From Gordius sp. MW1 (taxonomy: Eukaryota > Nematomorpha > Gordioida > Gordea > Gordiidae): a DNA stretch of 64,000 nt. The stretch is from positions 27,501,901-27,565,900 of the forward strand of contig OZ038527.1 in assembly GCA_964036665.1 (NCBI GenBank), read 5' to 3'. The position numbers and the translations under genes are program-made. A model generated the notes under the pieces. That model saw only the letters and a list, made by a program, of their open reading frames with translations, made no database searches and was not told where the DNA came from. Of this stretch, positions 3,009-52,092 are shown piece by piece. The stretch's first letter is position 1. Every line of letters starts with the position of its first letter.

Positions 3009-3716
3009 TGTGCTCTAATGTAGTTTGTTTTCCTAGACATAGTGGGGTATTTTATTGCCGGGATGGGGCTCAGATAAAGTCGGATAAAACTAAAAGTAAA
3101 GGTGAAACAATAAAAACAGAATTATGATCCTCTAGATCATAAAATGGGCTACAGGACTTTTCATTAATATCGAAAATAAATTTAAAATGCATAGCCTCAA
3201 AAAATGTCTATCTTTAACCTTATTTATTACAAAATTTGGACAAGTAGGGAAGAAAAAAAACATATTATTGTTTAATGTAAAATGCTCTATCAATATTATT
3301 TGTCAGATAACGTAATGTAAACACAAAGTCAATATTTGTATACCTGTGATATTAGTCTATATTTGAGGTTACTTAAATATGAAACATTAAATCCCCTGAT
3401 CAAAATTTATTGATTAGTTTATTAAGGGGATTTAATCATTTATTATGAGAAATTATTCAGTGTACCGGTCATATGAGCGTAATTAAAAATATAAGCAACT
3501 TGAAAAATCTTCCTTGGTTTAAATTTAAATGTTAATAAATAAAAAGGTCTAAACAGCGTTCGTTATCGGTGCAATAAGGTTAGATGTGATACAATGAAAT
3601 TATTTATAAATTCTGCAAGGTAAAGAACAATATTAATTTATCTACATTCGTTTCTATGGGGAACAAGGATTAACGTAGGGACTTTACCTAATATTATTAT
3701 CATTTATTATAAGACA
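3009..3716. other. Region downstream of the CatSper gene, no gene seen
   Basis: AT-rich; would hold the 3' UTR of the minus-strand CatSper-like gene. The plus strand has several TTTATT words (AATAAA on the minus strand) close to the stop codon, for example near 3702-3708. No other structure noted. Confidence 0.4.
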
Positions 3717-6700
3717 TTAATATTTATTAAAGAAGAAATAAATAAATAGTCCACTTCCAAACATCATTGTGGCACCAGCTTGAATAATGTAAGTATATGG
3801 ATAAGGCATTGAAATTTGCTTGACATATATCTAAGTAAATATCAACCTTCGCCAATATATTATGATAAGTTACCGTGTAACTAGTCCCCCAATTACAAAA
3901 TGACATCCCTTCGAGAATTTTGAAGTTGAAATGATACAGACCTGATCCCTAATTAAAAGCAGTTTAAAATTGGATCGTGTTGCATATTTGTTACTTTGAA
4001 AGTGAGCATGATGTTTTCAAAGTTCATAATATTGGTACCCGGGAACACTAAGGAGGCAGTAGGAGTAAGAGTTGTATTCGAGGCTATATTTGTTAATTTG
4101 AAAATTAGACTAAAAATACAATAGACTGGCCAACTTATTAAAGCACTTAAGCCACCATTTTAAATTAGGTATTTTCTATATACGAACTTCCATGGGCGTA
4201 ACCAGCTTTGAGATTAGAGGGGGAAATAATAATTTAGGGAGGGGCAAAATGATCATTATCTGTTTAGCCACAATTATAATAAACTTCAACAAGTTTTTGG
4301 ATTTAGCGGGAGGGAGGCAGCCGCCCCTCCTTGGCTACATGCGAATTTGTGCAGAGAAAATTTGCAAAATAATGAAAATATTTAAAGGTTATCATATTAA
4401 AAGTTAGTTAAACATTTGATCATTTATACATATCTAGATTTCCCAAAAATTGCGCATTCTTTGTTATAGTATGCTTCTAACATGGCTACCTACACCCTTA
4501 CTTAATAATTATTATCAGCTATTCGCCAATCTTTCGTATTATTACTCTATAGTCATCATAAACTTTTATAACGATATACGTGATATGGTGTAATCAGTCC
4601 TTCCATTTATTTCCACAACAACCCCGTAAAGCATTTGATTGAGGCCAACATTTTTAGGCCGATGTCGTCTTACTACAAAACCCAAATATATTGTAGTTGT
4701 CTGTATTAATGCATCAACCTTTTAAAACAAAATAATTAAAAACAACGTTTTAACAACACACAGATAGATTATTTTATACAAGATTTAATTTCTAACTTCG
4801 CTAATACACGGAATATAATCAATGCTCGATTGATCTATTATTTTGTCGCAGTAATCATGTTTTTCCTAACATAATATATACAATATAAAATCGATTCATC
4901 AACAAAAAAAGTACCCACCGTAATATTTAAGAATACTTTGTTATATACATTAAGGGTAGATGGAATTGCTATGCCATAATTTGAAGGTGGTTTATAGTTA
5001 GGCTACATTTTAGAAGAATAATTAAAAACATAAAACTAATTTCAATTCTAATAGTATTATAAACGTTTTAATCAACTTACTTCTAAAATATATTTTGCTG
5101 GCACAAAATTAGTCCAGCCATTTTTAATTCCTGGTTCGTATTTTTGAACGCTTAATATTTCCAAATATTTGGCATGATCAAGTGTAGGACAAGTCAGAAA
5201 AAGTCGTACAACTTGACTCACTTTGTGACATTTCAACGAGGAATCAGGGATGTATATGAATAGGGCGACAACACCCTAGGCATAAAAAAAGTTTTTAAAC
5301 GTAATATCTAATTTAAAAACTGAGTTATATGTATTGGTCAATATAATGACAATGTCTTCTACTTTTTGATCTTAATTTTATTAGACTTAAGTTTGTTATG
5401 CTCCTCATAGCTACCTAAATTGTAAGGTAGACTATCTTTATAATTACAAGTTTTTTAAATTAAAAAATCATGAGATACCATTTTTCTCATATTGGGTTCG
5501 AGGCATATTTTGAGCGTCTCGAGGTTTGTTTCAGAATCTCGAGTCCACATCTTTTCAATAGCCACTAACTCTCGATTTTTAATAAGCCAATGCATGGTTC
5601 TCGCTTTGAAAACTTCTACACCATAAAAATATATATCAATTTTATAATATTTCGATGTGCCTAATTATGCATTCATTGTTCACCTGTAATGTTGGAGGTG
5701 GAATAAAAAGTAAAACATATTTTTTCGTGTAAGCCTAGTATGTAAGAGTCGCTATAGGTATCATCGGTATAAAGAGCGTGGTTACATCGCGACTCCAATA
5801 GATTCCAATGTATAAGTGTAGACTATGTAAAAACACAATTTATTTTCATTGTATAACATGATTGACTATATACTGATTCATAGTTTAACAGATTATCTTA
5901 TAGATTGTCCTTTAATATTAAGGTGCGTGTATGCTATAATTTAGAAAATACCATAGCTCTTTGAATCTAAGCAATTTAATAGAATCTATAATTCTTCAAA
6001 ATTTTGATAGAATACTTTCAAGAAATTACATCATTAGCATTAACATCTTTGGACACTTTATTGAATCCAAAATTTATTGTGCTCCATTCTCCGGAAGGAA
6101 TCTCTAAGTATTGCTTCGAATTATAAAGCGATTGAGGATGTGGTGTAATGCAGGTCACTGTGGTGGAAGTTAACCGATTTGTGATTAAGCAATTAATGTT
6201 GGGGTTGATAGTAAGTGTACTACCGATGTCATCATCAGTCCATCCTTTAATTATTATATACAAATATAAATTTTATTCCTTTACGTATAATTATGAAATA
6301 TATAGAGGACGGGACATAACAAAATATTTTTCATCAAAAAGTGAGGTCATAAATTGCTGAGCAATTAATTTAATACGTGCTTAAATAACCAGCATGTATT
6401 TAGCACTATTATTTTGAGATACACTTGTGGTTACATTTAATGGAATCATAAATAGGAGAAATTAAAGCTTGTGCAACATAATTAAGAAAATTTTGTCATA
6501 AGTTACCTTTAACTTTATCCACGCCTCCGACGTCAGGTGATATTGATAATGTAACATTGTAAGATTTAATACTCTTTGACAGATTAATGCTATGTTTATA
6601 TTTGACATCCGTTAAAATATTTCCACCTTTTGGTGCCTCTATAACAATTCCCTTCAATATTGTATTAAAGGGTGATGTACTGTTAGCAATACTGACCCCC

Positions 6701-13597: not shown

Positions 13598-15134
13598 GTG
13601 TGATAAAAACGGCTGGATTTGGTCGGCTAGAAATAAACATATTAACACTTCAGAGGTTGGGTGGGGTTATAATGACCCCAAGTCGTTTAAAAATATTGTA
13701 CAAAATAAATTAGTGGATATTGCAATTTCATTTTTTCAGTAGCTTAACAAAATTTACCCTAGACTATTTCTGCAAAATTTGGCTAGTTTTTATCCTTAGT
13801 TTTTAAGATAGAGAGTGTTTTAGATGCCCGGGGTCTTCCACAACCCTACCTTCCATAAAATGAAAAAAAATTTCAACATTTTTTTTTTAAATATATTATT
13901 AAAACCCATTATTGTAAACCCGTTTGTGAAGAAATATTTTGTATACATATCTTTTTATTTAAAATATTAAACTCTGATTTTAACATAATAAATTTTCCTT
14001 GTGGTATTTCAAAGTTCTTATTTGTATGATTTTTACTGCATTTTTTGATTTTTTAATAAGTCTAATATTAAAAAGTGCAGTTTTTTTTAATTCTTTGTCT
14101 TAAGATGGTATATGAACATAACTATAACATTTTACAAGTTTCTTGATGATATATACTAGTGTAGTCATGAATCTGTGAGTTTAACAGGAGATTAAGATGA
14201 AGAGTTAATTGATATGCCTAACAAAATTAGTTACTTTTATAGGAAATAACTTAGAAGCTTTTATTATATGATAGATTTCAAAGGGAAAGACAATACTAAG
14301 TGGCACAAAAAATTGTTATAATAAAAATGTTAGAACAAAATAGAATTGTGTAATTCATTTAACTGGAGTAAAGCCATATGGATGGGCAACCAAAACTCCT
14401 CTTGATTGTTTAAAATTACTAATTACAGATAAATTAATTAAGAGTAGATAAAATTTAGCAAATTTATGACTATTAATTTATAAATATATGTAGAAAATGT
14501 ATATGTAACTATGTTTGTAGCCTCTTAAAATTTCTTATTAACATTTTTCATTTAAATATTTTTCATTGATTTTGATCTTTTATTATGAATCTTTATAAAA
14601 AATTTTATAAAATAACATTTAACTTTATAAAAATATGAGTTGAGACAATTAGTAACTTTTTTGGCTTAAAAAATTTAAAGCCAAAAATTGCCTAAGTTTG
14701 ACCATCTCTATTTTTTTTGTTTTTGGGTTATATTTTACCAAATTTTCTACATTTATAGTTTCAATCTTCTTTTATATAATATTATTGATTAAACCATAAA
14801 ATAGAATATATTTATTTTGGTATGAGCCAAAATAATCATTAGGGGGAAATTTTTGGGCTTTGCTCTAATTATAGGCATAAAATTTAAACCACTTGATCAA
14901 ATAGGCAAATTAATATATTAATGAACGTATAAGAGTTAAAATATAATTCTTGCAAATTTTGACAAGTTTATATTTAAAAATCTCTAAGTTATAGCTATTA
15001 AAAGTTTGAGGTAATTATAACCCCAAATACCATCCGTGTTAGAATTTTTGACCCAACCTCACCTTTGGTCTGGTTATGTTAAATCGACTAAAATAAAAGG
15101 TTAACCAAACAAAACCCAGCCATTTATTCAATAC
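13598..15134. mobile_element. MITE family B copy split by a piggyBac-like insertion
   Basis: The left piece (13598-13641, GTGTGATAAAAACGGCTGG) and the right piece (15083-15134, AACCAAACAAAACCCAGCC) are the two ends of family B, preceded at the left by TA. They are separated by the TTAA-flanked element 13646-15078, so the older MITE was the target of the younger insertion. Confidence 0.75.
13646..15078 (+). mobile_element. piggyBac-like element, copy 1 (decayed), TTAA flanks
   Basis: 1,433-bp element between TTAA at 13642-13645 and TTAA at 15079-15082. Starts CACTTCAGAGGTTGGGTGGG; its right side carries GACCCAACCTC in inverse. Similar in reverse complement along its length to 31742-33173 (1,432 bp). 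Around 14365-14430 a frame reads PYGWATKTPLD and then LKLLITD, resembling the start of the piggyBac transposase domain (TPLDFFxLFxTDEL-type motif). Many stops. TTAA target and the motif together suggest piggyBac; each alone would be weak. Confidence 0.65.
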
Positions 15135-16309: not shown

Positions 16310-16912
16310 CTATTTTCTTGGTTTGCCTTCTCGACCAGCCAATTTTACATTATAATAAAAATAAAGGTGTTTTAAACGAGTTTTCATTAAGCGATACCTT
16401 TCAGGCATTTCAGTTTTCATAGCTTCACCCATATAATTATTCTTTCTAATTAGCCATTGCAATTCATTCCATTTTTTTGGTACACCCCTTACCCATAAGG
16501 GCCCTTTATCAATTAAATCAGGTAGTTTAATACCATCCCCTAATATATCTATATAGTCATTCTGCCCAAAATATGCCTTTTCATGTGTCCAAGAGTCTGA
16601 AGGTTTGCATGGTGGAATAGGAGCTGGGGTTTCAGTTTTAACTCGGGGAAGAAAGCCACCATTAAACCAATTTATTTTATACCCACTTCTTCTTTTATAA
16701 GGATAAGGTGGAATACGTCTAGGTTTGTAATAGATGTCCCCTCTTTTAATAGGGACTGAACTAGTGTCATTAGGGTTTTCCCGCCATGATTTTACAACAG
16801 TTATTTTATTCAAATGCTTATGTATCCAAGAATAATTAGTCGAACAAGAGCGAAGCACGATTATCGAAGTAGCATTGATATACTGTAAAATTTTATTATG
16901 CAAAGTCTGCAT
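16310..16912 (-). CDS. MRPL51: Mitochondrial large-subunit ribosomal protein mL51 (single exon)
   Basis: 200-residue protein of the mitochondrial ribosome large subunit. The C-terminal half is diagnostic: PSDSWTHEKAYFGQNDYIDI (about residues 105-124), then GPLWVRGVP, WNELQWLIRKNNYMGEAM and RLKHLYFYYN, which follow animal mL51 in order; FGQNDYIDILG matches the fly protein as I remember it. The first roughly 90 residues are basic, lack acidic runs and are longer than in vertebrates (about 128 residues total), consistent with a mitochondrial presequence plus an insect-like N-terminal extension. Start chosen as the first Met of the open frame; no intron is needed. Stop is TAG at 16310-16312, with an AATAAA on this strand just 3' of it. 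Confidence 0.93.
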   Translation of the reverse strand: MQTLHNKILQYINATSIIVLRSCSTNYSWIHKHLNKITVVKSWRENPNDTSSVPIKRGDIYYKPRRIPPYPYKRRSGYKINWFNGGFLPRVKTETPAPIPPCKPSDSWTHEKAYFGQNDYIDILGDGIKLPDLIDKGPLWVRGVPKKWNELQWLIRKNNYMGEAMKTEMPERYRLMKTRLKHLYFYYNVKLAGREGKPRK

Positions 16913-17637
16913 CCTACATTTACCCTAAGCAACTGATACAAATAACATGCAAATAACACTTACAAAATTTGAAGAACAAAATGTTTGCAAACGGTATGAT
17001 AATACAATGAGACAATATCGATATCATACCAATGGGGATAATAGAATATACCATAAGAATTTATGATATTCTTAAGTTCTAGAACTTATTTAAATGTGAT
17101 ATACCATTTATAATAGCTTTTTTGGGTACTAATTAATATAATTTATAAATTAGTTATTTAATTTTATATTTTAAATCTATAATTCTTGATTCTCATACTA
17201 AATATATATCTGTAAATTCAATTTTATTAGTGATGAATTCCAGGTTAAATAAAAAATTATATTTAATTAGCTGCATGCAGAACGCTATTTCTATTTAATA
17301 AAAATTATGCTACTTAGCTCTACAATTTATAGATGCTAACATAATATCAGTGGACATCTCTTGTAAGAAAAATGGTTAATCCTTTCTCAACCTTCTCAAT
17401 GTATTTATCTCTTATGCAGCTGATTTCAGTATAATTTTCCATTTTTATCTTGCGTTAATCCAAACTCTTATAGATTAAACTTTGTTTGAACTATCTAAGG
17501 CTTAGTCTGTCTCTAAGCGATCTTAAACTTATTAACTGTGCAAATTATATAAAAATAAATGATTATCGCCGATATTTTGCAGTTAATAATTTCTTTAAAT
17601 GATAAATTAGGAAAAGCAAACTGTCCCTTATTTGGAC
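16913..17637. other. Upstream flank of mL51, no other gene seen
   Basis: Should contain the mL51 promoter and 5' UTR on the minus strand. AT-rich, with no recognised core promoter element or reading frame. Confidence 0.4.
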
Positions 17638-18622: not shown

Positions 18623-18778
18623 ATTTGGACTACTTATATTTATGTTAGTCGGTAGAGCCAATGGTAGTTAAGTGGTAAGTGAATATTTTTACTGTAATTT
18701 TAGAAAAATTAGAACAGAATTAGTTTAACATCGATATGCATGTTCAAGACCGATTCGCTGATAAGATAATTAGAACTG

Positions 18779-19505
18779 TGTTGTATTTCCGAACTACTGT
18801 TGCGTCTCAGAACTAGGGGAGGGGGTGTTTTATCTCGGAAAATGGGAGAAGTATTGGCACCTTTAATATCAATTTCCAAATAATTTATTTCGCCACTTTC
18901 GCTTTCAATAACAACGATAGGTATATATAACTATGTAACCACGAAACGAATTACAGTACAATGATAATAACGCGGGAATATAAATTTCTGGCGATTAAAC
19001 AGGGGGGAAAAAAATTGATTCTAATGTGGGAAATTCTCTAGTTCTCTTAAGTATTGGAGGAAGGAACTATTTGGAGTAACGTTCGGAAAATAACGTTCTG
19101 GTGTGTATCGATCTTCATGGAGCTTTTATAGGTTCGATTTTGTTGGCCTGGATCTTTATCCTTGAAACTTCTTTTCTTTTTGACCCATTTTACCGCGCCA
19201 ATTTCGTGATGAATGGCCCTAACTTCCAAGGTTTTCCCACGGCCTTTGGAAACTTCAAGTGACAGTTATAGTTTTCCCCTACGTTTCTTGTGCCAATTCA
19301 ATATTTATTACTAGGGTTTGTTGTATCCTTGCTTCTTTCTGATCCTTCTTTCGGGCCAAGTCGTAATTTACGGCTTTGTTTTGCTGTATCCTTGTGCTAT
19401 TTTGTTACCAACCCAAACTTCTGTGACCTTCCTTCGTTCTTAGCCCTCCTTCCGAAGCGCGTCACGTGCGCTACCTATTATGGAGTGGATCTCATGGATA
19501 TGACA
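18779..19505 (-). repeat. LTR copy 1 (3'-most on minus strand)
   Basis: 727 bp, TG...CA termini on the minus strand. Differs from the other LTRs at a few sites (for example taatatcaat rather than taatataaat near 18870, and accacgaaac rather than accacaaaac). Confidence 0.9.
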
Positions 19506-20152
19506 CCTTTCTTTTTTCTGGGATCAAGTCTCGGGGGGGGGGGTCTCCTGTTGCGTGTTCACGGTGATTGGGTCGCGCAGGTGGGTGAAGCAGGTGGGTG
19601 AAACAGGTGGTTGTGTCAGGTGGTTGGGAACTTGAGAGTACTTCTTGTTCAGGGGATAATCCGGATATATATCAAGCATGATTGTCTCTTGTTATCCATC
19701 GTCTGTCTGTCGCCGATATTCTAAGAAATATATCAATACTACCCAATCCCTTACTCAGGATCGATAGTCATAACATGTTCATATTTAAATTAAAGTCTTT
19801 ATTCACCCCTTTTCTTTTTTATTTTTAAACTTTATTTGCATTTAGTATTTGGTATTACATGATCGCACTCAGTTCGACAGGCAATTATTCCTACATAAAA
19901 ATACAATAAATGGGCATCTTTCTAGCTGGTCAAAATTTTGGCTTTACTCCTTCCTTCAATCTCATTGTGGCTTTTGACCGATCGCTTGTTACGGCGGTTT
20001 AGTATCGATTGTCTCCCTAAGGTCGTAGTTCAGTTGACCGTTCACTTGTACTCGACTGTCTTTCTAAGGTCGTCTTCGGACTTTTGCTTTAGGCTGGTTT
20101 GATTGAAGGCGTATCTTAAGGTCGCTTCTTGTACACTGTACCGGGGCACCAC

Positions 20153-20879
20153 TGTTGTATTTCCGAACTACTGTTGCGTCTCAGAACTAGGGGAGGGGGT
20201 GTTTTATCTCGGAAAATGGGAGAAGTATTGGCACCTTTAATATAAATTTCCAAATAATTTATTTCGCCACTTTCGCTTTCAATAACAACGATAGGTATAT
20301 ATAACTATGTAACCACAAAACGAATTACAGTACAATGATAATAACGCGGGAATATAAATTTCTGGCGATTAAACAGGGGGGAAAAAAATTGATTCTAATG
20401 TGGGAAATTCTCTAGTTCTCTTAAGTATTGGAGGAAGGAACTATTTGGAGTAACGTTCGGAAAATAACGTTCTGGTGTGTATCGATCTTCATGGAGCTTT
20501 TATAGGTTCGATTTTGTTGGCCTGGATCTTTATCCTTGAAACTTCTTTTCTTTTTGACCCATTTTACCGCGCCAATTTCGTGATGAATGGCCCTAACTTC
20601 CAAGGTTTTCCCACGGCCTTTGGAAACTTCAAGTGACAGTTATAGTTTTCCCCTACGTTTCTTGTGCCAATTCAATATTTATTACTAGGGTTTGTTGTAT
20701 CCTTGCTTCTTTCTGATCCTTCTTTCGGGCCAAGTCGTAATTTACGGCTTTGTTTTGCTGTATCCTTGTGCTATTTTGTTACCAACCCAAACTTCTGTGA
20801 CCTTCCTTCGTTCTTAGCCCTCCTTCCGAAGCGCGTCACGTGCGCTACCTATTATGGAGTGGATCTCATGGATATGACA
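20153..20879 (-). repeat. LTR copy 2 (central)
   Basis: 727 bp. Shares taatataaat and accacaaaac with LTR 3 but keeps the LTR 1 states near its other end, a mosaic expected for a recombinant central LTR. Confidence 0.9.
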
Positions 20880-21525
20880 CCTTTCTTTTTTCTGGGATCA
20901 AGTCTCGGGGGGGGGGTCTCCTGTTGCGTGTTCACGGTGATTGGGTCGCGCAGGTGGGTGAAGCAGGTGGGTGAAACAGGTGGTTGTGTCAGGTGGTTGG
21001 GAACTTGAGAGTACTTCTTGTTCAGGGGATAATCCGGATATATATCAAGCATGATTGTCTCTTGTTATCCATCGTCTGTCTGTCGCCGATATTCTAAGAA
21101 ATATATCAATACTACCCAATCCCTTACTCAGGATCGATAGTCATAACATGTTCATATTTAAATTAAAGTCTTTATTCACCCCTTTTCTTTTTTATTTTTA
21201 AACTTTATTTGCATTTAGTATTTGGTATTACATGATCGCACTCAGTTCGACAGGCAATTATTCCTACATAAAAATACAATAAATGGGCATCTTTCTAGCT
21301 GGTCAAAATTTTGGCTTTACTCCTTCCTTCAATCTCATTGTGGCTTTTGACCGATCGCTTGTTACGGCGGTTTAGTATCGATTGTCTCCCTAAGGTCGTA
21401 GTTCAGTTGACCGTTCACTTGTACTCGACTGTCTTTCTAAGGTCGTCTTCGGACTTTTGCTTTAGGCTGGTTTGATTGAAGGCGTATCTTAAGGTCGCTT
21501 CTTGTACACTGTACCGGGGCACCAC

Positions 21526-22251
21526 TGTTGTATTTCCGAACTACTGTTGCGTCTCAGAACTAGGGGAGGGGGTGTTTTATCTCGGAAAATGGGAGAAGTA
21601 TTGGCACCTTTAATATAAATTTCCAAATAATTTATTTCGCCACTTTCGCTTTCAATAACAACGATAGGTATATATAACTATGTAACCACAAAACGAATTA
21701 CAGTACAATGATAATAACGCGGGAATATAAATTTCTGGCGATTAAACAGGGGGGAAAAAATTGATTCTAATGTGGGAAATTCTCTAGTTCTCTTAAGTAT
21801 TGGAGGAAGGAACTAATTGGAGTAACGTTCGGAAAATAACGTTCTGGTGTGTATCGATCTTCATGGAGCTTTTATAGGTTCGATTTTGTTGGCCTGGATC
21901 TTTATCCTTGAAACTTCTTTTCTTTTTGACCCATTTTACCGCGCCAATTTCGTGATGAATGGCCCTAACTTCCAAGGTTTTCCCACGGCCTTTGGAAACT
22001 TCAACTGACAGTTATAGTTTTCCCCTACGTTTCTTGTGCCAATTCAATATTTATTACTAGGGTTTGTTGTATCCTTGCTTCTTTCTGATCCTTCTTTCGG
22101 GCCAAGTCGTAATTTACGGCTTTGTTTTGCTGTATCCTTGTGCTATTTTGTTACCAACCCAAACTTCTGTGACCTTCCTTCGTTCTTAGCCCTCCTTCCG
22201 AAGCGCGTCACGTGCGCTACCTATTATGGAGTGGGTCTCATGGATATGACA
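21526..22251 (-). repeat. LTR copy 3 (5'-most on minus strand)
   Basis: 726 bp; private differences include actaattgg (actatttgg elsewhere), cttcaactgac (cttcaagtgac elsewhere) and gtgggtctc (gtggatctc elsewhere). It abuts the AACTG target duplication. Confidence 0.9.
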
Positions 22252-22256
22252 AACTG

Positions 22257-31741: not shown

Positions 31742-33173
31742 TCTTTCACCCTCAGACCATACTCCGTCGGTCGGGTCTAAAATGCTAACACGGATGGTAT
31801 TTGGGGTTATTATTACCCCAAACTTTAAATAGCTATAACTTCCATATTTTATAATATAAACTTGTCAAAATTTGCAAGAATAATATTTCAACTCTTATAC
31901 GTTCAAATATATTAATTTGGCAATTTAATCAAGTGGTTAAAATTTTATATCTATGTTTACAACAACCCCCAAAATTTTTCCCCTAATGGCTATTTTGCCT
32001 CATACCCAAAAAACTATATGATATTTTATGGTTTAAATAATAAGATATTATAAAAGAAGGTTGAAACTATAAATGTAGAAAATTTGGTATAAACCCAAAT
32101 ACAAACAAAATAGAGATGGTCAAACATAGGCAATTTTTGGCTTTAAAAAGCCAAAAAAGATACTATTAGTCTCAACTCATATTTTTATAAAGTTAAATGT
32201 TATTTTATATAGATTTTTATATAGAATCATAATAAAAGATCAAAATTAATGAAAAATGTTATATAAGAAATTTTATGAAACCACAAAAATAGTTACATAT
32301 ACATTTTCTAATATTTATATAGTCATAAATTTGCTAAATTTCACTCTACTCTTTTTTATTACATCTTTAATAAGTAATTTAAAAGAATCAAGAGGAGTTT
32401 TGGTTGCCCATCCATATGGCTTTACTCCAGTTAAATGAAATACACAATTCTGTTTTGTTCTAACATTTTTATTATAACAATTTTTTGTGCCACTTAGTAT
32501 TGTCTTTTCCTTTGAAATATTATATAATAAAAGCTTCTAAGTTATTTTCTATAAAAGTAACTAATTTTGTTAGGCATATCAATTAACTCTTCTCATCTCT
32601 CCTGTTAACTCACTCACAGATTCATGACTACTCTAGTATACGTAATCATAGAATCATCAAGAAACTTGATTAAATGTTATAACTGTTATGTTCATATACC
32701 ATCTTAAGACGAAGAACTATAAAATAACTGCACTTTTTAATATTAGACTTATTAAAAAATCAAAAAATGCAGTAAAAATCACACAAATAAGCACTTTGAA
32801 ATACCACGAGGAAAATTTATTATGTTAAAATCTGAGTTTAAAATTTTAATATTTAAAATAAAAAGATATGTATACAAAAAATTTCTTCACAAATGGGTTT
32901 ACAATAATGGGTTTTAATAATACATTTCAAAAAAAAAAATTTTGAAAATTTTTTTTCATTTATGGAAGGTGGGGTCGTGGAAGACCCCAGGCATCTAAAA
33001 CACTCTCTATCTTAAAAACTATTGGATAAAAACTAGCCAAATTTTGCAGAGATATTCTGGGGGAAATTTTGTTAAGCTACTGAAAAAATAAAATTGTAAT
33101 ATTCACTAATTTATTTTGTACATCATTTTTAAACGGCTTGGGGTCATTATGACCCCACCCGATCGACGGAGTG
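31742..33173 (-). mobile_element. piggyBac-like element, copy 2 (inverted relative to copy 1)
   Basis: 1,432 bp between TTAA (31738-31741) and TTAA (33174-33177), matching 13646-15078 in reverse complement throughout. Minus-strand start CACTCCGTCGATCGGGTGGG corresponds to CACTTCAGAGGTTGGGTGGG in copy 1. In the middle the minus strand reads VKPYGWATKTPLDSFKLLI, close to the start of piggyBac DDE domains. Interrupted by stops, so inactive. Confidence 0.68.
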
Positions 33174-33253
33174 TTAAATAAATAACGCACCGTCAGATGA
33201 TAGTCTCCGGGTTTAATGCAAATACTCGTCATCGTAGTATTAAATATAACAAC

Positions 33254-41189: not shown

Positions 41190-44100
41190 AGGTAGGTAGT
41201 ATAAGCCCCGATGACAAACAAGAGCTTGGCTAAATCGGCAAGCTAAGATTGAGTCCCATCTGACACCATAGGTGCATATCGGGCCACGCTAACCAGAGGT
41301 TACGTGTTCAGTTGTTAGTAGATTAGTGGTTAGTAATCAGTATTGTTAGTAGCAGGAATCATTAAAGTAAAATCCAAGCAGAGCACACAATTAAATAGTA
41401 TAAGGACATTACTCTGGGATTCTGGGAAGAGGATTTGCAGGTTACCAAAGTTTGCTAGTTTTGAACGACGGACTTGGGGTCATGTATGAAGGGTATGAAA
41501 GGAAAGTGGCTCTTCTTAGTTAGCTGGTTTGGGCATCACACTCAGACTCAGGAATAGATAAGATCATTTCGAAAAAGCGGTTGGGGAGGAATACTTTGAA
41601 GGGAAATTGGAGGCAGAAAAGGTTTTCCAAGCGGATCTGTTTTGCATTATAGGGAATATAGTATTCCAATCATGATTAAGAGAACGAAGTTCAGAGAAAG
41701 TTTTGTCGATCCAGGATCCTCGACATTTTAAATTTTTAAGTTGGGGGGGTCTCCATAGAATTGATCTTAAGCATATGTTAAGTCCATTAAGTCTAGTTTG
41801 GTGGGCTAGGAAGTTCAACTTACGTGCTATAATTATATTTTTATAGGAGGGATTTCGCAAAGGGACCAAAGGTTTGAAATGCTGATTACCTCCGGGTAGA
41901 ATATTTTACAAACTATTCTTAACATTTTATTTAGTTTGGCCTGGGCAGTTTTAAGAGTCGAGCCTTTTAGGGACCATGTTTCACATCCATAGAGGAATAT
42001 AGGCAATATGGTGGTTTTGTAAAGACGAAGGCGGGTCGGTCGAGCCAATTCATTGGATTTCCATATCGAATAGCAGGAATAATCTCTTTAATACTTTAGA
42101 TATTTTATTAGAGACATCTTGTTGAAAATATGTATCTGAAGATAGAGTCACACCTAAGTAGTTTATTGAATCTGAAAAGGGGATCAAAGTGTTGTCAATA
42201 ATCAAAGTATTAGTATGATGGGATAAGTTAATAGCCAGTATGTTAGACTTTTTTGGGTTAATTATTAAACCCGCTTTTTGGATTCTATGACGAATCTATC
42301 GACAAAATTCTGTGTTTTGAGAATTGAATCCGATATGATGCATAAATCATCCGCAAATAGCAGTGAAGAAACTTTGATACCGTTCATGTTAATACCGTCG
42401 TAAGAAAGGGTAGATCTTTTAATTATAAGATCCATTGCTGTGATGAATAGTAAAAGAGATAATGGACATCCCTGTCTAACTAATCACTCTCATGTCCTTG
42501 TAAAGAGAGAAGATCAGTCTAATAATATTTTTGGGAATTCCTAGTAGACACAAAGATTCCCATATGTAAAAGTGGGATAGGGAATCGAAAGCTTTCTGAA
42601 TGTCAACAAACGTTAGGACTAAAGGTGATTTGGATTTAGAGGAGATATCATTAATATTTTTGAGAGTAAGGATATGTTCAATTGTAGTTTTTGACTTACG
42701 AAAGCCTGCTTGATTACTTTTTAAATTATCGTCAATGAATGGATATATTCTCCTATATAATATTTTTATAAAAACCTTTGAGATGTTATTTATAATTGTA
42801 ATCCCTCTATAATTATCGGGAAGGGATGGGTCTCCTTTTTTATAAATTTTACTAAGTAGACCAGTAGACCAAGCGTGGGGGATGATCTCTTGTTGCCAGA
42901 TTTTTGTGAAAAGTTGAAGCAAAAGTTCACTAAGGGTGTAATCAGCTTAAAGGGCTTCCGCTGTGATTTTGTCTGCATCGGGAGCTTTATGAAGTTTGAG
43001 GGATTTTACTACATATTTTATTTCACACAAGGAGGGTGGTTCTACTCTGATATATGGGGTGCAGGGTGTTTTGAAGTTATTAACGAATTCAAGGAATATG
43101 TCGGAACATGGGATTAAATAAGGGCAATCTAGAACGGAACGAAAGTGATTCTCCCAAGCCTCCGTTTGGATCAAAGAATCGTTGGAGTTATATTCGTTTT
43201 TTAGTATGTTGTAGTTATATTTATCCTCAAATTTTGTAGTGATATTCCTGAGAATTCTGTAAAGGTTGTGTGTAGAGTTAGTGCGAGCAGCAGATTCTGT
43301 TTCCCGTAGTTTGCTCGATAAGTATTTTGCCTTGTCCTTTTTTATTGCTGCTTTAATCTTTTTTGTAAGTAGTTGGACCCTAGCTTTTTAATTTCTAAGT
43401 GTCTTATCCTTAAAAACGTTGTACCGTGACTCGAGTAAATTAATGGTATCAATGGAGAACCAGGACTTAACGTTGATATGGATATGATTACACTGTTAAG
43501 GGGTGAAAAACTTTGCTAAAGTGTCATTGTGGTTATTAACTGAGAGGGGGGCCAGATCGCCAAGTTCCTTCGAGTCTGTTTGTAATCTGGACTCCAGTTG
43601 AGAGATGTCTCTGATTATGTCTGCTCGAGATGAACATTTTTTAAGTTTTTTTGACGAGTGAAGAGAGGAAGATTAATAAAGAGATCAGCTGAGATAACTA
43701 AATGATCTGTCTTTAAAAGAGAGTGAAAGGTGTGAAAATTCTTCACCATTTTGTGATTTTTTAGTTGACATATTATATGATCAATTTGGGTACCTCGATG
43801 ATTTTCATTTTTTTGGTATGTGATTAGGTTATCAAAAGGAAGGTCAGAAAAGGTTGAGGTTATCTTTAGTTTGTGTTTGTAGCAAAATTTTTTAAGTAAT
43901 TTACCGTTCCGGTTAGTCGGGCCAATCGAATTCGGGCCAACTATTAGATTATTATCACCCAATGAACGCTGTACTGAAGCATTGAAGTCCCCAACGAGGA
44001 TATTAAGATGCTTATTTTTAAATATATCTGAGATGTTTTGGAGGAGAGATCCCATCACTTGGGAATTTTTGGAAGCGGGAGGAGCGTATATATTAAAAAT

Positions 44101-44395
44101 TGATAAACAACTTATTTGTAAGTGAATGATTAACAGTCTGTTATTCACATAGTCAATGCTACCCACTATGAGGTCCTTTTTTTTAAAGAATGCCTACGCC
44201 TGATGCAGGTTCTAGGCCGCAATCCGTGCAATAGAAATTATAGTCGTTAGCGGGGAGAATTTTGCGATGTGAGTATCTAGTTTGTTGAACGCATAAAATG
44301 TCAATTTTATGGTTGGAGGCCAATAGGGCCAGGGTCTGTAAAGCTCCAGCTTCTCTTAAGGTTTGAGTGTTAAGTGAAGCCAGTTTTAAAATCAT
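41190..44395 (-). mobile_element. APE-type LINE remnant (endonuclease, RT and C-terminal parts)
   Basis: Minus-strand non-LTR retrotransposon with several frame breaks. 44183-44395 and 43615-44166 encode an apurinic-type endonuclease (ASLNTQTLREAGALQTLALL, ILVGDFNAS, RGTQIDHIIC, LLKTDHLVISADL). 42476-43174 carry the RT start (LHKAPDADKITAEAL, DNYRGITIINNISKVFIKIL, FVDIQKAFDSLSH). SSLLFADDLCIIS, the active site, lies near 42340. 41564-42048 give the C-terminal part (LPIFLYGCETWSLKG). The tail at 41200-41290 matches the repeat at 11690. Clade not resolved. Confidence 0.9.

Positions 44396-44878: not shown

Positions 44879-52092
<7,214 letters not shown>

Follow-up and report, generated by a model that had tools for sequence, protein, structure and literature searches.

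Tandem architectures of LTR retrotransposons are common in plants, with TLI1 and TLI2 of rice as examples, and gypsy elements were suggested to be more prone to them (PMC11899658). There, TLI2 is described as three LTRs and two internal regions with a 5 nt target duplication, cases from kangaroo centromeres and tandem insertions in Drosophila are cited, and the authors leave open whether the origin was recombination or a complex insertion. In maize, Wukong elements carry three to seven LTRs, the family having 230-bp LTRs, a size of 532 bp in all and 215 members (PMC4528315). Tandem TRIMs were likewise reported from bivalves (biv-TRIM) in PMC6934838, which also cites tandem TRIMs in cestodes. 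Wukong, Cassandra (PMC7215508) and biv-TRIM are small non-autonomous elements with the arrangement LTR-int-LTR-int-LTR, for which unequal recombination was proposed. A literature search for three-LTR tandem LTR retrotransposons in insects found nothing, which is no proof of absence in print.

The window analysed here is a stretch of 64,000 nt from Gordius sp. MW1 (contig OZ038527.1) that harbours no N; positions refer to the window unless stated otherwise. An LTR-int-LTR-int-LTR array occupies 18779-22251 with exact edges, and its five parts (727/647/727/646/726 bp, all on the minus strand) are LTR1 (18779..19505; 727 bp), the non-coding INT1 (19506..20152; 647 bp), LTR2 (20153..20879; 727 bp), INT2 (20880..21525; 646 bp) and LTR3 (21526..22251; 726 bp). 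The target-site duplication AACTG abuts the outer ends of LTR1 (18774..18778) and LTR3 (22252..22256) and is absent from all inner LTR edges, so that the earlier note, which had described one insertion within a single AACTG pair, was exact in its coordinates and right on this point. TGT at the LTR start, ACA at the LTR end and AACTG on both sides mark the insertion of an LTR retrotransposon, and three LTRs plus two internal regions in one orientation within a single target duplication make it a tandem one. The LTRs are mutually 99.2-99.7% identical and the internal parts 99.8%, thus chance is no issue. LTR1 and LTR2 differ at 2 sites, LTR2 and LTR3 at 4 (3 substitutions plus 1 homopolymer indel) and LTR1 and LTR3 at 6 (5 substitutions plus 1 homopolymer indel), while the sole difference between INT1 and INT2 is one G within a G run.

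A tandem LTR element is a known kind; what is added here is a case with uncommonly clear evidence for its origin and a readable order of events. The array resembles rice TLI1 and TLI2 (PMC11899658) in that tandem elements have a common internal LTR inside one short target duplication, yet here the host is an animal, the element is internally deleted and polarised sites give the event order. In contrast to the multi-copy families of Wukong, Cassandra and biv-TRIM, it is one locus, with 727-bp LTRs that belong to a coding gypsy family.

The sense of the element is the minus strand. Since the polypurine tract and the primer-binding site make sense on that strand only, the element is read right to left, and LTR3 is thus the 5′ LTR and LTR1 the 3′ LTR. 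Read in this direction, every LTR begins with TGTCATATCC and finishes with AATACAACA, and the internal part opens with G plus TGGTGCCCCGG and closes with CCCAGAAAAAAGAAAGG against the following LTR; a primer-binding site therefore follows the 5′ LTR and a polypurine tract precedes the 3′ LTR. In INT1 the polypurine tract CCCAGAAAAAAGAAAGG (19506..19522, minus strand) directly precedes the sense start of LTR1, and the primer-binding site TGGTGCCCCGG (20141..20151, minus strand) lies 1 nt from the LTR; the counterparts in INT2 are at 20880-20896 and 21514-21524, respectively, also on the minus strand. The two sites claimed in the earlier note are thus present, but the plus-strand orientation given to them was wrong: a plus-strand reading was rejected, as the internal start on that strand is the complement of the polypurine tract.

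Over its 11 nt, TGGTGCCCCGG matches genomic tRNA-Met(CAT) and tRNA-Leu(TAA) at their 3′ ends, CCA included. Four genomic stretches served as tRNA candidates, among which ARAGORN called two tRNA-Met(CAT) and one tRNA-Leu(TAA) and, in the fourth stretch, none; it is these calls in three of four stretches, not the pattern count, that support a tRNA. When all 18 nt complementary to the primer-binding site were searched for in the genome, no tRNA was found within 3 mismatches of the pattern; several of the matches were the retroelements themselves, and with 15 and 23 matches against 41 and 40 for the backward control the count is meaningless. In the window, neither a tRNA nor an Rfam match reaching the gathering score was found. 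The longest stop-free stretch of INT1 is 58 codons and nothing recognisable is encoded, which bears out the descriptions of the internal part as devoid of coding capacity and of the element as non-autonomous. A TATAAAAG box in LTR2 (20497..20504, minus strand) is, as a motif only, a putative promoter.

The genome (211.8 Mb in 12 contigs) holds at least 47 matches with the array and at least 42 with LTR1, the best 40 candidates having been scored for each; 32 of the 39 listed LTR matches outside the window are 92-97% identical. The family was sampled in 20 fetched stretches (loci L009-L028). Gypsy relatives harbour gag-like and pol frames. For example, L013 carries a 1264-aa frame with RVT_1 (residues 508-666), RNase H (729-858) and integrase (976-1135) by Pfam; integrase zinc-binding and core domains are both present, as are a weak protease match (306-393; E 0.0011, below the Pfam cut-off) and, in a separate 114-aa frame, a CCHC knuckle. 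The order protease-RT-RNase H-integrase in relatives sharing the LTRs is that of Ty3/gypsy, although the window copy encodes none of these. Because the pol-bearing members share the LTRs and both internal ends, the window copy belongs to this Ty3/gypsy family.

Insertion hallmarks recur across the family. A 5-bp target duplication, named earlier as a feature to look for elsewhere, was present in 11 of the 12 copies with both outer flanks compared, and the sole copy lacking it (L023) has a truncated LTR; three solo LTRs (L026, L027 and L028) each carry one. The 11-nt primer-binding core TGGTGCCCCGG was found in 9 of the 20 fetched stretches; 11 of the stretches show the polypurine tract, each with a one-base difference. 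Some LTRs of L013, L025 and L027 have a 19-bp duplication of the outer end, and for L013 and L027 the target duplication was located beyond this extension. One deletion is common to five loci (L010, L011, L012, L015 and L024), which lack 4371-6985 of L013 and with it most of RT, RNase H and integrase; L009 has a different one (4290-6943 of L013). Deletion derivatives of this gypsy family seem to have spread, presumably in trans.

The internal part of the window copy is composed of two pieces of such an element. In sense direction, the 5′ part of INT1 is 190 bp of gypsy leader that reaches an ATG (99.5% to L010), and the other piece, 468 bp that end at the polypurine tract, derives from the element's 3′ portion (98.7% to L014). 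The two matches overlap in an 11-bp microhomology, AAGCCACAATG (19963..19973, minus strand), which lies at the internal deletion junction, itself template-switch-like or end-joining-like. When the genome was searched with the internal part (best 40 of 99 candidates scored, so that counts are lower bounds), the whole 647-bp form was found in 2 of the 50 matches listed, both at this locus, and no dispersed family with the same internal form was found elsewhere in the genome among the matches listed.

This bears on the family assignment, as distinct from the duplication. A TRIM usually has short LTRs and a tiny internal domain and is multi-copy, and a LARD is a large multi-copy family with a long non-coding internal domain. 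The short non-coding internal part with its primer-binding site and polypurine tract would suit a locus that founded a non-autonomous, TRIM/LARD-like family having large LTRs, but that reading is very improbable. The complete internal region was seen at this locus alone (2 of 50 matches listed), its pieces are gypsy leader and 3′ end, and the LTRs are common to coding gypsy copies. An LTR of 727 bp and an internal part of 647 bp at one locus among the matches listed are not those of a TRIM, nor is a 647-bp internal part at a single locus among the matches listed that of a LARD. Since the complete internal form was met at this locus alone among those matches, the locus is best read as a single internally deleted copy of a Ty3/gypsy family, not as a TRIM/LARD family. 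The TRIM/LARD-like family proposed in the earlier note, at odds with LTRs and internal ends that are Ty3/gypsy, is replaced by this single deletion derivative.

The three LTRs vary at six sites (92, 165, 230, 292, 481 and 711). In plus-strand order, LTR2 equals LTR3 at 92 and 165 and LTR1 at 230, 292, 481 and 711, with one switch. For polarity, 30 family LTR rows from the 20 fetched stretches were used, these being the LTR1 matches that span >500 LTR positions, with shorter pieces left out. At site 92 the family LTRs have C in 28 rows, T in 1 and a gap in 1, and A in 0 of 30; at site 165, G in 27, A in 1 (L028), C in 1 and a gap in 1; at site 292, T in 30 of 30; at site 481, C in 29 and G in 1 (L023); and at site 711, G in 25, T in 1 and a gap in 4, with A in 0 of 30. 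LTR3 accordingly bears derived A at sites 92, 165 and 292, the last private to it, and LTR1 derived G at site 481 and derived A at site 711. Site 230 is the length of an A-run, 7 in LTR1 and LTR2 and 6 in LTR3; this run is variable in the family (7 A occur also in L021 and in one LTR of L024), so no polarity can be taken from it.

LTR2 thus has two derived substitutions in common with each neighbour: sites 92 and 165 link it to LTR3, and sites 481 and 711 link it to LTR1. The idea that LTR2 is merely an unmutated copy was ruled out by these derived states, each held in common with one neighbour, and a pattern arisen without exchange would need repeated parallel or back changes. On these four polarised substitutions, which carry the case, LTR2 is best taken as a true recombinant of LTR1 and LTR3, and the mosaic noticed earlier stands, with a single switch and derived states on both sides of it. 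The change from LTR3-like to LTR1-like sequence falls between LTR sites 165 and 230 (20317..20382); by polarised substitutions alone the interval extends to site 481 (20633). Stepwise identity along LTR2 against the family copies revealed no single closest copy.

The age of the duplication can be compared with that of the insertion. If the switch is set within the interval from site 165 to site 230, comparison of the two 1.37-kb unit copies shows 0 substitutions over 1372 positions, plus a single homopolymer indel, against 5 substitutions over the 726 positions that lie beyond the unit (Fisher p = 0.005, rising to 0.008 when indels are included, for a breakpoint picked from these same data). 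Between INT1 and INT2, 0 substitutions compare with 4.4 expected if they were as old as the LTR1-LTR3 pair (P about 0.012; conditional test, 0.041). LTR1 and LTR3 have diverged by 0.34% per lineage, about three times the 95% bound of 0.11% per lineage on divergence since the duplication. Substitution-free units together with diverged LTR1 and LTR3 put the insertion first and the duplication later, and the order of events would then be insertion of a simple element, divergence of its LTRs and, last, duplication of the unit. These data indicate that divergence of the outer LTRs preceded the duplication and that a later exchange between those two LTRs, at the locus, gave rise to the middle one.

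Most probably, therefore, the array arose by post-insertion duplication of a unit through unequal LTR crossover in an internally deleted Ty3/gypsy element. The order of derived sites in LTR2 is the one predicted for a crossover of the right-hand with the left-hand LTR, a one-switch chimera with two polarised substitutions on each side, although a cDNA route gives the same order. A non-autonomous LTR-int-LTR element of about 2.1 kb, with minus-strand sense, would have entered by one insertion that made the AACTG duplication, presumably in trans via the proteins of a longer relative, and its two LTRs would then have accumulated differences at the locus. Later, pairing of the 3′ LTR of one copy with the element's own 5′ LTR on the sister chromatid or the homologue would have led to a crossover that added one LTR plus internal unit, leaving a middle LTR with LTR3 sequence on the left and LTR1 sequence on the right. 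The single target duplication, the polarised one-switch LTR2, the absence of substitutions between units and the gypsy kinship are observations; a DNA crossover as the type of exchange, and the choice of partner, are what we infer. Unequal LTR recombination, named in the earlier note as an origin of the third LTR, gains from the polarised mosaic and the substitution-free units. Against this, the diagnostic sites number only six in all, of which 230 is unpolarised and 292 private to LTR3, and 'derived' letters occur also in single family copies (site 165 in L028; site 481 in L023). The loss product of LTR recombination is present in the family as the three solo LTRs; they too result from LTR by LTR recombination, whereas the present locus is a gain-of-unit product. 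The locus is a small, clear illustration of how a single retrotransposon can start a tandem array.

An LTR made by reverse transcription owes its U3 to the 3′ LTR and its U5 to the 5′ LTR, so that a DNA crossover and a route through cDNA cannot be told apart by the mosaic's direction alone. On that route, a trans-made cDNA or one-LTR circle of the simple element would have recombined into its parent locus free of integrase, the new LTR taking U3 from LTR1 (the 3′ LTR) and U5 from LTR3 (the 5′ LTR); read in sense direction, the LTR2 mosaic is arranged as a reverse-transcribed LTR should be. The switch, at sense 498-563, lies between TATAAAAG (376) and AATAAA-type signals (617 and 639), all of them motifs only, as is a further AATAAA-type signal at sense position 197; judged from these motifs, the R region could lie between the TATA box and the polyadenylation-like signals, where the switch falls. 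If R starts near the TATA box, however, a full-length strong-stop cDNA would bring the LTR3 states at 230 and 292, and LTR2 has neither (292 could be a later change). The internal form was seen nowhere else among the matches listed, there is no sign that the locus yielded mobile cDNA, and more steps are needed, all of which makes the route quite unlikely. Integrase-independent tandem formation in yeast and single-LTR circles are discussed in PMC11899658, and were the route true, the locus would be a case of natural integrase-independent self-tandemisation of a non-coding gypsy derivative in an animal.

About equally unlikely is an assembly artefact in which a repeat loop was passed twice, adding a unit to what is truly a simple LTR-int-LTR locus. 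A false loop would also yield a middle LTR that begins LTR3-like and finishes LTR1-like, and it agrees with the absence of substitutions between the two units. Against it, an array of 3.47 kb is usually spanned by long reads (the assembly has 12 contigs for 211.8 Mb), the window is free of N, and INT1 and INT2 differ by one homopolymer base, a weak argument. Insertion in one step of a ready-made three-LTR cDNA, of the kind proposed for tandem TRIMs in PMC11899658, would place the whole array within one target duplication, as observed, but is scarcely credible: with outer LTRs identical at insertion, four parallel or back changes would be needed at 92, 165, 481 and 711, and zero substitutions between INT1 and INT2 misfit the supposed age. 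The unequal crossover between diverged LTRs is thus preferred.

Other rearrangements involving the family were seen at two fetched loci. L019 (genome C2:2772300-2782200) contains a tandem duplication (3112-4542 and 5036-6460; 99.4% identical) that includes a partial family LTR (sites 21-639 and 35-639); its edges look, by eye, like the CAGCCAGCGGACGG-type repeats at 47237-49102 of the window, and it is possibly an LTR-bearing satellite-like array. The same locus has, at 1315-2456, a head-to-head LTR palindrome with arms 96% identical. In L021 (genome C8:31073800-31083000), gypsy-related segments recur in inverted orientation about a centre, and the frames of one strand are found again on the other.

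In the window itself, the gypsy array lies between the arms of an inverted repeat of about 1.4 kb (13642-15058 and 31769-33177), which are about 17-19 kb apart and were found in pieces that are 82-95% complementary. A frame for mitochondrial ribosomal protein L51 (Pfam MRP-L51, E 2.5e-24) is located at 16310-16924 on the minus strand; the array has the same orientation and is situated some 1.9 kb upstream of this frame. Two minus-strand frames with RVT_1 and endonuclease-reverse transcriptase domains (42476-44193) are probably a non-LTR retrotransposon. At 49108-49353 there is a 58-bp tandem repeat. As judged by eye, its unit also borders the gypsy copies of L015/L016 and L020, so gypsy elements may often have this repeat family as a target or neighbour.
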